A stretch of 64,000 nucleotides of DNA from an uncultured Clostridia bacterium (lineage in GTDB: Bacteria; Bacillota; Clostridia; Lachnospirales; Anaerotignaceae), in contig CALWGC010000017.1 of NCBI GenBank assembly GCA_944378105.1, positions 1-64,000 of the forward strand, written 5' to 3'. Every line of letters begins with the position of its first letter. The stretch's first letter is position 1. Positions 4,583 through 9,377 of this stretch are shown here, in pieces. The notes under the pieces were generated by a model. It was not told the DNA's origin and did not search any database. It saw only the letters and a list, made by a program, of their open reading frames with translations. The translations under genes and the position numbers were made by a program.

Positions 4583-7036
4583 TTATGCTTCTTTTTTGGT
4601 GAATGTCATCTTCCCATCTTCTGCGCCGATGACAACGGTATCGCCTGCATGGAAGTTGCCTTCCAAATAGCTTTCTGCAAACTTATCTTCCACTTCGCTT
4701 TGCATTGCCCGCTTCAACGGTCTTGCGCCATAGGCCGGGTCAAAGCCTACTTTGGCAATGGCCGCAACGGCTGCATCGCTAAATTCCACCGTAATATCCA
4801 TGTTTTCTTTGATCCGGGTGGTGATTTCTTTGGCTAAGAGTTTCACAATTTCTTTGATATTGTCTTCGTTGAGGCTGTGGAATACCACAATATCATCAAT
4901 CCGGTTCAAGAATTCTGGACGAAAGACTTTTTTCACTTCATCCATCACTTCTTTTTTCATGGATTCGTAATCTTTTTCTTCCTGCTCCGCGCCGTCGGTG
5001 GTATGAAAGCCCAATTTCTTTGGCGAAACGATGCTTCTAGCCCCTGCATTGGAGGTCATGATGATGACCGTGTTTTTAAAGTCCACTTTCCGGCCCTGGC
5101 CGTCGGTGATATGGCCGTCGTCCAGCACTTGCAGCAAGACGTTAAACACATCCGGCGATGCTTTTTCGATTTCATCGAACAGTACCACCGAGTATGGTTT
5201 TCTTCTTACTTTTTCACTCAGCTGGCCGCCTTCTTCATAGCCCACATATCCCGGAGGAGAACCGATCATTTTAGAGACACTGTGTTTTTCCATGTATTCG
5301 GACATATCAATTCGAATCATGGCATTTTCATCGCCAAAGAGCACTTCGGCCAAGGCTTTGGACAGTTCCGTTTTCCCAACGCCCGTAGGCCCCAAGAACA
5401 GGAACGAACCGATAGGACGTTTTGGATCTTTTAAGCCCACACGGCCACGACGGATGGCTTTGGAGATGGCACTTACGGCTTCTTCCTGGCCCACCACTCT
5501 TTGATGCAACAATTCTTCCATGTGCATCAACCGTTCTCCTTCGCCTTCTTGAATGCTTTTTACTGGGATTCCCGTCCAACCAGAAACCACATCGGCAATG
5601 TCTTCCGGCGTCACTTCTTTTTTGGCGTCGTGGTTGGATTCGGCCCAAGCTTTTTTGGCTTCTTCTAACTGTGCTTTCAAGTCGGCCTGTTCTTTTTTCA
5701 CTTTGGCAGCCTTTTCAAACTCTTCGGTTTTGATGGCTTCTTCTTTTTCTTTTTCCAAAGAAGAAAGTTTGTCTTCCAACTCTTTCACACCGCTTGGCGC
5801 CGTATAGCTTTTCAGTCTCAGTTTCGATGCGGCTTCATCCACCAAGTCGATGGCTTTATCAGGCAAGAAACGGTCGGTGATATACCGTTCGCTCATCTTC
5901 ACGGCAGCCACGATCGCTTCGTCACTGATTTTTACGGCATGGTGGGCTTCGTATTTATCCTTCAAGCCTCGCAGCATTTCAATGGCGTTTTCTTCGGAAG
6001 GTTCTTCCACTTTCACTGGCTGGAATCTCCGTTCCAAAGCGGCATCTTTTTCGATATATTTCCGGTATTCGGCCAAGGTGGTGGCACCAATCAGCTGGAT
6101 TTCGCCACGGGCCAGGGACGGTTTCAAGATGTTGGAGGCATCGATGGCGCCTTCGGCCCCGCCGGCCCCGATGATGGTATGGATTTCATCGATGAACAGT
6201 ACAATCTGCCCATCTTTTTTCACTTCATCCATCACGCTTTTGATTCTTTCTTCAAACTCGCCTCTGTACTTACTGCCGGCCACCATAGAGGAAATATCCA
6301 GACAAACCACCCTCTTGTTTTTCAAGATTTCTGGAATATCGCCTTTGACAATTTTTTGTGCCAATCCTTCCACAATGGCCGTTTTCCCAACGCCGGGATC
6401 GCCCACCAGACAAGGATTGTTTTTGGTACGACGGCTTAAAATCTGGATCACACGCTGAATTTCCTCATCTCGACCAATGATGGGGTCAAACTTATTTTCT
6501 TTGGCCATTTGGGTGAAATCGCGGCTATATTTATCCAAGTTTGGCGTAGCAGAATTGCCGCCTTTGCCCTGGCCCATGGAAGCGCCATTGCCCAGGCCGC
6601 CTTCGCCTTCGCCAAGCATGCCTAAAATTTCTTCATACACTCTTTGGATGTTGACACCCAGGGCTAGCAAAATCCGCACGGCCACACAGTCCGTTTCGTT
6701 TAAGAGGGCCATCAAAATATGTTCCGTGCCCACATAGCCGGTTCCCATATTGTTGGCTTCCTGTATCGAACGGTCCAAAATCCGTTTGACTCTTGGTGTA
6801 TAATCCTGCAGGGCGCCACCGTTACCGGTGCCGATCATTTCCTGCACTTTTTTTCTGATATCTTCTTCCATCACACCCTGGCTTTCCATGGCCTTGGCGG
6901 CAACGCTGTCTTGCACGCCAATGAGCCCCAGCAGCAGGTGCTCTGTCCCCACATAGTTGTGGCCCATGGCCGCCGCATTGTTTTGCGCCGCCCGGATCAC
7001 TTCTTGGGCTTTTTGTGTAAATTTGCCTTGCATCAT
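4583..7036 (-). CDS. clpC: ATP-dependent Clp protease ATPase subunit ClpC
   Basis: ClpC is the AAA+ unfoldase that feeds substrates, including proteins tagged by McsB arginine phosphorylation, into ClpP. The 817-residue protein has two N-terminal Clp repeats (residues about 3-145, each with a YVGTEH motif), AAA domain 1 with Walker A GDPGVGKT (212-219), a coiled middle domain with a UVR-like segment (about 425-465), and AAA domain 2 with GPTGVGKT and the sensor segment [12 protein letters not shown]. It is the last gene of mcsA-mcsB-clpC, 31 bases after mcsB. Two adjacent ATGs are possible starts. Regulation probably comes from the repeat operators upstream of mcsA. Confidence 0.97.
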
Positions 7037-7067: not shown

Positions 7068-8096
7068 TCAATGGCTGCCGCGAAAGACTTGGCGCAGCAG
7101 ATTGGCTCTGGCCACATCCCGCTGGGCAGCTGTTTTGCTCCCGCCTTGCTGCATATGGCAAGGTTGGGTTTCAATAAAGATTTGGTACATGGTTTTTGGA
7201 TAGTTCCAATGGAAAATCCCTTCCTGAGCGCCTTCTCGTAACAAAGACAGACACTGGGCTGCCTCGTTGGCAGAAATGCGTCTGGCCTGTTCCAGCACGC
7301 CCAAGGCACGATACACCTGGTCTTCATAGGCCACTTCGTCTTTTTCACGAATGGCTTTTCGGGCCTTTTGCTCCTGTTCTTTGACCAGATGGATGGCATT
7401 TTTCAAGTTTTTGATGATTTCTTCTTCCGACTGGCCCAAGGTGATTTGGTTGGAGATTTGATAGATACCGCCCAAAGAATCACTGCCTTCGCCATAAATC
7501 CCCCGTACCGTAATACCAAAACGGCTTAAGGTACGGCTTAAGTGTGGCATCTGGCCGGTTTTTTCCAGGCTTGGTACATGGACCATAAAGCTGGCCCGTA
7601 AGCCGGTACCCATGTTGGTTGGGCAAGCGGTGATGAAACCGGCCTGCTCATGATAAGCATATTCTACCGTTTCTTCAATTAAGTTATCCAATTTATCGGC
7701 CAAATCCCATGCGGCGTCGATATCTTCGCCGGGGCAGATGGTTTGAATCCGCACATGGTCTTCTTCGTTGATCATAATGCTGACCGTTTCGTCATCCTTC
7801 ACCATTACGGCACAAGGTTTTTGCTGCTGGGCCAAAACGGGACTGATGATATGGCTTTCCACCATGGTCCGTTTTTCTTCCATCGGCAAGGTATCCACCC
7901 GGCGGAACAAAAACGTATTGGCCAATGGCGTACGGTCGTTCATCACGGCGTCTTTGACCATCTTTAACACTTCTTCTGCCTCTTCTTGTTTCATCTGAAC
8001 CGGAAACGGAAATTTTTTGACGTTTCTGGCCAAACGGACTCTGCTGCTGATGACAATGCCATCGTTGACAACACTGTTTTCATACCATTTTGCCAT
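7068..8096 (-). CDS. mcsB: Protein-arginine kinase McsB
   Basis: McsB phosphorylates arginine residues on misfolded or regulatory proteins, marking them for ClpC-ClpP degradation. The 342-residue protein resembles the phosphagen-kinase catalytic domain: SSRVRLARNV near residue 17, the catalytic-loop TACPTNMGTGLRASFMVH near residue 160-180, and GIYGEGS. The start has AGGAGG eight bases upstream and lies three bases after the mcsA stop, so translation is coupled. McsA is its activator. In most Firmicutes ctsR heads this operon, but here it is absent. Confidence 0.96.
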   Translation of the reverse strand: MAKWYENSVVNDGIVISSRVRLARNVKKFPFPVQMKQEEAEEVLKMVKDAVMNDRTPLANTFLFRRVDTLPMEEKRTMVESHIISPVLAQQQKPCAVMVKDDETVSIMINEEDHVRIQTICPGEDIDAAWDLADKLDNLIEETVEYAYHEQAGFITACPTNMGTGLRASFMVHVPSLEKTGQMPHLSRTLSRFGITVRGIYGEGSDSLGGIYQISNQITLGQSEEEIIKNLKNAIHLVKEQEQKARKAIREKDEVAYEDQVYRALGVLEQARRISANEAAQCLSLLREGAQEGIFHWNYPKTMYQIFIETQPCHMQQGGSKTAAQRDVARANLLRQVFRGSH

Positions 8097-8099
8097 AGG

Positions 8100-8618
8100 T
8101 CATTCCTCCTTTCCCAGTTGACGAATGCGGTCTCTCAATTTTGCCGCTTCTTCAAATTCTTCTTTTTCAATGGCAACTGCCAATTTTCTCTTCAAGGTTC
8201 CAATTTCCCGCCGGGCCATCATCTGTCCGCCGCTTTTTTGTGGGATCTTTCCTTTGTGCTCATTGCTGCCATGGATGCTTTTGAGTGTTGGCTGCAAATA
8301 AGGACCAAAGGTATCATAGCAAGCCGCACAGCCAAGTTTGCCGCCTTGCTTAAACTGTTCCAACGTCATGCCGCACACCGGGCATCTGGTTCCACTTGCT
8401 TTTGTGCCCAGGGCTTCCGGCGCAGCAGAAAAATGAAACATATCCTGAAACATATCATCAAACAGCTGGCCAAACCCATTGTGTCCCCACGTCATATCCT
8501 GCCAGTACCCACCTTCTTCCGCGCAGGCCGCACAGAGATGTTGTTCGGTTGTGACACCGTTTACCACTTGTTTGAGATGCACCGTTGCCGGATTTTTTTT
8601 GCATTTTTCACACAACAT
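8100..8618 (-). CDS. mcsA: McsA, zinc-finger and UVR-motif activator of McsB
   Basis: McsA binds and stimulates the arginine kinase McsB. The 172-residue protein contains four Cys-pair motifs (CEKC, CAAC, CPVC, CAAC), which would form two treble-clef zinc fingers, and ends in a UVR motif (LAVAIEKEEFEEAAKLRDRIR). It is the first gene of mcsA-mcsB-clpC. The ATG at 8618 has AGGAGG nine bases upstream, and a 27-bp inverted repeat ends four bases before that site. The operon lacks ctsR, which normally precedes mcsA. Confidence 0.94.
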   Translation of the reverse strand: MLCEKCKKNPATVHLKQVVNGVTTEQHLCAACAEEGGYWQDMTWGHNGFGQLFDDMFQDMFHFSAAPEALGTKASGTRCPVCGMTLEQFKQGGKLGCAACYDTFGPYLQPTLKSIHGSNEHKGKIPQKSGGQMMARREIGTLKRKLAVAIEKEEFEEAAKLRDRIRQLGKEE

Positions 8619-8637: not shown

Positions 8638-8664
8638 TTAGCCACCAAGCCAAGTGATTGCTAA
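8638..8664 (-). promoter_or_regulatory. CIRCE-like 27-bp operator, proximal copy
   Basis: Read on the minus strand this is TTAGCAATC, nine bases, GGTGGCTAA. It has the 9-9-9 architecture of CIRCE (TTAGCACTC-N9-GAGTGCTAA) and matches it at 14 of 18 arm positions. It lies four bases upstream of the mcsA ribosome-binding site, within the transcribed leader, so it could act on DNA or as an RNA stem near the start codon. Confidence 0.6.
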
Positions 8665-8778
8665 TTTCATTCCAAAAAAGAACAAGATGTCGCAATCTCC
8701 TCCTTTTCTTTTGCTCCTCCCCACGACGTTGTTGTTTTTGTTCTGTCCCAGAGCGGCTTTGGCATCAGAAAAGGATTG

Positions 8779-8805
8779 TTAGCCACCAAGGCTATTGATT
8801 GCTAA
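8779..8805 (-). promoter_or_regulatory. CIRCE-like 27-bp operator, promoter-proximal copy
   Basis: This copy has the same arms as the one at 8638-8664 (TTAGCAATC and GGTGGCTAA) and differs only at three spacer positions. It begins about eight bases downstream of the predicted transcription start, the classic place for a repressor operator. HrcA is the obvious candidate protein. No tandem GGTCAAA heptads (CtsR boxes) are visible. Confidence 0.65.
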
Positions 8806-8819
8806 TCTCTATACTTTGT

Positions 8820-8847
8820 ATTATAACGCTTTTTTTGGATTTGTCAC
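8820..8847 (-). promoter_or_regulatory. SigmaA-type promoter for mcsA-mcsB-clpC
   Basis: Minus-strand -35 GTGACA (8842-8847), a 16-base spacer and a consensus -10 TATAAT (8820-8825), immediately upstream of the distal operator copy. Confidence 0.75.
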
Positions 8848-9176: not shown

Positions 9177-9377
9177 TTATACGCGGGTTACGTTTGCAGC
9201 CTGAGGACCTTTCGCGCCCTGCACTACTTCAAATTCTACTTCCTGGCCTTCTTCCAAGGTTTTGTAACCTTCTGCCTGGATAGCAGAGAAGTGTACGAAA
9301 ACGTCGTCTTCGCCTTCTACAGAGATGAAGCCGAAGCCTTTTTCTGCGTTAAACCATTTTACTGTACCTTTTTTCAT
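9177..9377 (-). CDS. csp: Cold-shock domain protein (CspA family)
   Basis: This is a 66-residue single OB-fold RNA chaperone. It has RNP1 (KGFGFISV), RNP2 (VFVHFSAI) and the start [17 protein letters not shown], and the length is that of CspA/B/D. Such proteins bind single-stranded RNA and DNA and keep mRNA unstructured in the cold or in rapid growth. It is monocistronic, with its own strong promoter about 55 bases upstream and hairpin terminators after it. The ATG has an AGGAGG site. Confidence 0.97.

Follow-up and report, generated by a model that had tools for sequence, protein, structure and literature searches.

The window, that is the whole stretch of 64 kb analysed here, contains an operon with the gene order mcsA, mcsB and clpC, all on the minus strand (Table 1). 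As the initial annotation had stated, the operon begins directly with mcsA, and no CtsR ORF adjoins it. The McsA equivalog was the only NCBIfam match of the mcsA product and its score lies below the equivalog cut-off; the name ClpC was assigned from the domains together with the operon context. The mcsA leader is flanked by two copies of a 27 bp element: a proximal one (op1), located just 5' of GGAGG, the Shine-Dalgarno sequence of mcsA, and a distal one (op2), close behind a promoter of the sigma-70 type. Both copies lie on the minus strand and conform exactly to TTAGCAATC-N9-GGTGGCTAA. They are identical to each other at 24 out of 27 positions, with differences at the other three, and the duplication and the placement of both copies are as had been described initially. 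When up to three mismatches are allowed, this pattern is found twice in the 64 kb, compared to an expectation of 0.09 (sd 0.35). The promoter hexamers GTGACA/TATAAT of the clp operon are shared by relatives, in which, according to sequence comparison, op1 also has the same position. Directly upstream of the operon and on the same strand there is a cold-shock protein gene, which is followed by two terminator-like hairpins.

Table 1. Features of the clp locus, numbered by positions in the window.
Feature	Position	Strand	Description
clpC, Hsp100 unfoldase	4583..7036	-	Clp_N repeats, two AAA modules, UVR motif
mcsB, protein-arginine kinase	7068..8096	-	PF00217; NF002194 above cut-off
mcsA, activator of protein-arginine kinase	8100..8618	-	McsA equivalog E 5.6e-51, UVR motif
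op1, proximal asymmetric CIRCE-like operator	8638..8664	-	TTAGCAATCACTTGGCTTGGTGGCTAA; begins 46 nt ahead of mcsA ATG
Leader hairpin	8675..8708	-	GAAAAGGAGGAGAT-TGCGAC-ATCTTGTTCTTTTT; ends 10 nt before op1
op2, distal asymmetric CIRCE-like operator	8779..8805	-	TTAGCAATCAATAGCCTTGGTGGCTAA; start at about +8
Sigma-70-type promoter	8820..8847	-	GTGACA-N16-TATAAT; 11/12 consensus positions
Terminator-like hairpin	9025-8990
Terminator-like hairpin	9091-9062
Cold-shock protein gene	9177-9377	-

The likeness to CIRCE suggested by the initial annotation holds for the 9-9-9 form, since op1 and op2 both have arms of 9 bp, a spacer of 9 bp and the outer TTAGC/GCTAA. The sites are not canonical: the full consensus TTAGCACTC-N9-GAGTGCTAA is matched at 14 out of 18 arm positions, and the mismatches are unequally distributed between the arms (one versus three), the right half carrying three in both window copies. 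The genome to which the window belongs (2.04 Mb in 34 contigs, 98.5% complete) has Candidatus Neoanaerotignum galli (L097) as its closest named relative, which NCBI classifies no further than Clostridia and which we take to be a member of the GTDB family Anaerotignaceae, order Lachnospirales. Whole-genome scans were made by pattern search. Within the entire 2.04 Mb, TTAGC-N17-GCTAA occurs five times, namely as op1, op2 and three perfect CIRCE elements, which are located at groESL, at hrcA-grpE-dnaK and at htpG; the reversed-pattern control gave two matches. A single match was obtained for hrcA (E 1.1e-61), preceded by perfect CIRCE, and a second paralogue was not found in this genome. The findings which the initial annotation had named as arguments against control by HrcA, a ctsR gene elsewhere or absence of the motif from other heat-shock genes, were looked for and did not refute it: no ctsR was detected (see below), and CIRCE stands at groESL, hrcA-dnaK and htpG. 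We call op1 and op2 a CIRCE variant which would work like CIRCE without being canonical, and binding of HrcA to it is predicted.

The deviation from CIRCE is itself highly regular. In the canonical sites of the family (n=59) each half begins with TTAGCA. At the clp sites of the family, positions 6-7 of the gene-side half are CA in 33 out of 33 cases when the opposite strand is read (TTAGCCA or TCAGCCA), versus A followed by C, T or G in 59 out of 59 canonical sites. This corresponds to TGGCT in all 33 versus GTGCT at canonical sites. The promoter-side half stays TTAGCAnTC, and the asymmetry was never found in the opposite orientation. Furthermore, the 9 bp spacers of the clp operators vary freely, and numerous genera have the outer arms and TGGCT in common. 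Exact matches to TTAGCANTC-N11-TGGCTAA occur in 90 out of 392 Lachnospirales genomes versus none out of 372 Clostridia genomes from outside the order, and the reversed-pattern control gave no match. Two further ideas about the architecture were discarded. The spacings between op1 and op2 vary from about 97 to 160 bp among relatives, which speaks against fixed helical phasing. Also, sequence comparison shows that the pairing of the inner arms is lost in relatives; therefore, recognition as DNA is preferred over an RNA stem.

Each of the 12 mcsA-bearing family genomes examined has the variant upstream of mcsA (two copies in seven of them), and 14 family genomes lacking mcsA have it upstream of clpC. 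Ten of these 14 clpC loci had been chosen for carrying the motif, the other four stem from five further loci that were checked (4/5 with the variant, three ending in GGCTGA). In most genera of the family the site thus precedes mcsA, or clpC where mcsAB is missing; no such operator was found at clpC of genus g9 (G010). A McsA match is missing in many genera of family f1 (e.g. G008-G015), in which clpC and the operator are retained. Further Lachnospirales families carry the variant at mcsA or clpC, and near-consensus forms stand at mcsA in sister families, such as a perfect CIRCE (G312) and, in G047, a site matching at 17/18 positions. Many clp operons of the Lachnospirales have neither ctsR nor a recognisable operator; therefore, control by HrcA does not follow in every case where CtsR was lost. 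Examples are the mcsA genes at L033, L038, L040, L044, L045, L130, L149, L157 and L168 from other families of the order, which have no ctsR and no CIRCE. At these loci (e.g. L033) small genes precede mcsA, several of which encode Cys-rich tails resembling zinc ribbons.

The same operon type is the target of CtsR in class III control as known from Bacillus subtilis (ctsR-mcsA-mcsB-clpC). The locus investigated here differs in having no ctsR in the genome or the sampled order and no tandem GGTCAAA box. Such a box, the criterion for the CtsR regulon, was found at many ctsR loci and is absent upstream of the window operon. As had been noted initially, not even a GGTCAAA half-site is present in the clp promoter region of the window, and the two nearby matches both fall within mcsB. 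Pfam searches for CtsR were not relied on alone, since their control was positive only in Lactococcus and missed Bacillus subtilis. Therefore, an alignment (A2) was built from 13 sequences of ctsR-mcsA loci. It finds CtsR in 142 out of 196 Clostridia genomes, all 142 being among the 188 from outside the Lachnospirales, and in none of the eight Lachnospirales genomes of this sample. A set of 60 Lachnospirales genomes from 25 families was likewise negative with A2. In the window's genome neither PF05848 nor PF17727 nor A2 gave a match, so that no CtsR encoded elsewhere in it was detected. It appears that this lineage is one in which CtsR, by which the ClpC genes for repair and degradation of proteins are usually repressed, was lost, and CtsR seems to be missing from an entire order of gut Clostridia. 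Among public genomes, operator and ctsR exclude each other: no CIRCE-like site was found at 61 mcsA loci with ctsR directly upstream, and no ctsR at the examined mcsA loci bearing such a site.

We read twenty further Lachnospirales matches of the asymmetric pattern individually. Seven stand at hsp20, four at clpB, one each at lon and htpG, and two directly at mcsA; two lacked an ORF in the sequence retrieved, although by its coordinates one of the two is upstream of mcsA, and the last three had no heat-shock gene beside them. Pfam confirmed one example of Hsp20 and one of the ClpB N-domain; all other examples, and likewise the fragments of lon and htpG, were identified by inspecting the sequence and not from a model match. 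Thus, heat-shock genes carry the canonical form in the window's genome and the variant across the order. The operator ahead of the apparent lon and htpG genes in two genomes of the order (L266, 1-1801; L268, 1-2001) suggests that the HrcA regulon may be wider in Lachnospirales. At the hsp20, the clpB and some of the mcsA sites, the gene-side arm coincides with a -35 box (TTGACA/TTGATG), followed after 16–17 nt by the -10 element. In the merged promoters of hsp20 and clpB (L256-L264, L274), TTAGCACTC is combined with TTGACA or a similar hexamer running into TGGCTAA, and the -10 element comes at 17 nt. Merging of operator and promoter, as in these sister families, is a plausible origin of the arm deviation. 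In the window, no -35 box lies inside the operators and the promoter is located upstream, yet the TGGCTAA arm is retained; therefore, it is probable that HrcA accepts this arm or makes use of it.

Between promoter and operator, the leaders of the family show two layouts. In type A (eight genomes, the window among them) op2 lies at +8 to +10 in seven of the eight and op1 at +105 to +170. Type B (18 loci) has one operator only, which begins no earlier than +37 and is preceded by a hairpin with a U-rich tail; the 3' end of this hairpin is 8–16 nt from the operator in the 18 loci. In 15 family loci this hairpin has 12 pairs with 96% of the cells paired, and six pairs show double changes (26 double-change cells versus 8.0, sd 2.2, in shuffles). 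Compared to hairpins beside canonical CIRCE the type B hairpin is far more stable (p ~2e-8), and for type A the comparison with canonical CIRCE flanks gave p ~0.005, the related genomes not being independent in either case. The window hairpin is weak (E -10.7, with 1 of 20 shuffles as low) and is the apparent counterpart of the covarying hairpin in the relatives. The 12 bp covarying hairpin with its U-rich tail was observed between clp promoter and operator at L025-L027, L039 and L076-L085. The same clp-leader hairpin, resembling a small attenuator, occurs in the clpC leaders of G013, G014, G026 and G034 (L177, L178, L176 and L179, respectively). Rfam yielded only sub-threshold matches on the clp leader and no family for the hairpin; a cspA match in a relative was confined to the gene upstream and did not lie in the leader.

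We consider it highly probable that op1 and op2 are HrcA operators of an asymmetric CIRCE type, which would control mcsA-mcsB-clpC after the loss of CtsR. The initial annotation had proposed that HrcA, or another repressor, has replaced CtsR. The conserved site, its mutual exclusion with ctsR, the variant at heat-shock genes and the perfect CIRCE in G312 all favour HrcA. An unrelated repressor whose operator merely looks like CIRCE would agree with the deviation at 4 out of 18 arm positions and with the restriction of the exact variant to clp in the window's genome. However, the 5-17-5 geometry is identical, sister families have intermediates up to perfect CIRCE at this very position, and the variant recurs at other heat-shock genes, which makes such a repressor very improbable. 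We give slightly less credit still to the view that both sites are decaying copies of CIRCE with little function. They match the consensus at just 14 of 18 positions, and similar degenerate copies in Spiroplasma have been considered lost (PMC5138195), but outer arms and TGGCT would hardly be kept in many genera next to 9 bp spacers that are free to vary. That the deviant half is fixed (33/33) instead of drifting, and always on the gene side, could also indicate a composite operator, with HrcA on the canonical half and a second regulator on the invariant TGGCTAA half, so that two signals are integrated. This appears unlikely: other families have the same half at hsp20, clpB, lon and htpG, the 17 bp spacing between the outer arms is maintained, and where this half overlaps the -35 box, as it does at hsp20, at clpB and at part of the mcsA sites, the overlap explains the deviation without another protein.

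A further proposal is compatible with the reading as HrcA operators and would refine it, and forms its least certain part. With the operator at +37 or beyond, simple occlusion of the promoter is unlikely; therefore, a roadblock was proposed, which possibly aids termination at the hairpin. Bound HrcA would stall RNA polymerase, and the weak terminator-like hairpin would then release the transcript. The covarying, largely paired stem and the type B arrangement fit this idea, the flanks of canonical CIRCE being without a hairpin. On the other hand, the window hairpin is weak and op2 lies at the promoter, and since much of the U-tract is paired within the stem, the strength of the terminator is uncertain. 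We regard release of the transcript in this manner as a tentative possibility, and it is with similar reserve that the clp leaders of the family may be seen as bearing a roadblock made from a directional, half-degenerate CIRCE just downstream of a weak terminator, which bound HrcA would render efficient.

Judged from sequence comparison, there is strong support for the view that HrcA controls the clp operon by way of a conserved asymmetric CIRCE, and probably one repressor took over both heat-shock circuits. In the proposed mechanism, HrcA would recognise a nearly canonical promoter-side half, TTAGCAnTC, and a gene-side half, nnTGGCTAA, by which mcsA-mcsB-clpC would join groESL, hrcA-grpE-dnaK and htpG under HrcA. 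Bound at op2 (+8 to +34), HrcA may block initiation or promoter escape; at op1, about 140 bp further downstream, it could act as a roadblock to elongation or cooperate with op2. Misfolded protein would titrate the chaperones, HrcA would be released and the operon induced. The weaker half may allow a graded response, in which repression of clp would be lifted before that of groESL and dnaK or would be less tight than theirs.

Compared to the class I operators of the CIRCE/HrcA system, the sites share the 9-9-9 inverted repeat, the outer TTAGC/GCTAA arms, the association with heat-shock promoters and the presence of hrcA. They differ in the gene-side half, which is fixed at TGGCTAA where CIRCE has GTGCTAA, in the target mcsA-mcsB-clpC and in the presence of two copies, one of them far downstream of the start point. 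In Lactobacillus plantarum the HrcA and CtsR regulons overlap at shared heat-shock promoters, and two copies of CIRCE were described at the promoter of the hrcA operon (PMC3842655). There, too, the two circuits meet and a promoter carries two copies, but both repressors are present, whereas here only HrcA seems to remain. In Mollicutes HrcA controls clpB and lon (PMC5138195), which resembles our case in that Clp and Lon genes are under CIRCE and copies are paired. However, only near-canonical CIRCE was counted as functional there, whereas here the asymmetric form itself is conserved, and the target is mcsAB-clpC. In the freely accessible papers that were searched, we found no report of CIRCE at mcsA-clpC in Lachnospirales, nor of heat-shock genes at which a repressor roadblock is paired with an intrinsic terminator. 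Likewise, no report was found there on the operator variant, on the replacement of CtsR by HrcA in Lachnospirales or on the hairpin of the clp leader.

The conserved operator lies below the consensus and is missed by standard CIRCE searches, whether these use the full consensus or TAGCA-N15-TGCTAA. With the conserved hairpin beside it, a new way in which HrcA may act becomes open to testing. With several Lachnospirales families apparently placing the Clp operon under HrcA, this appears to be a clean natural case of regulator replacement, and it is predicted that in these families one repressor sets the levels of both the chaperones and ClpC.
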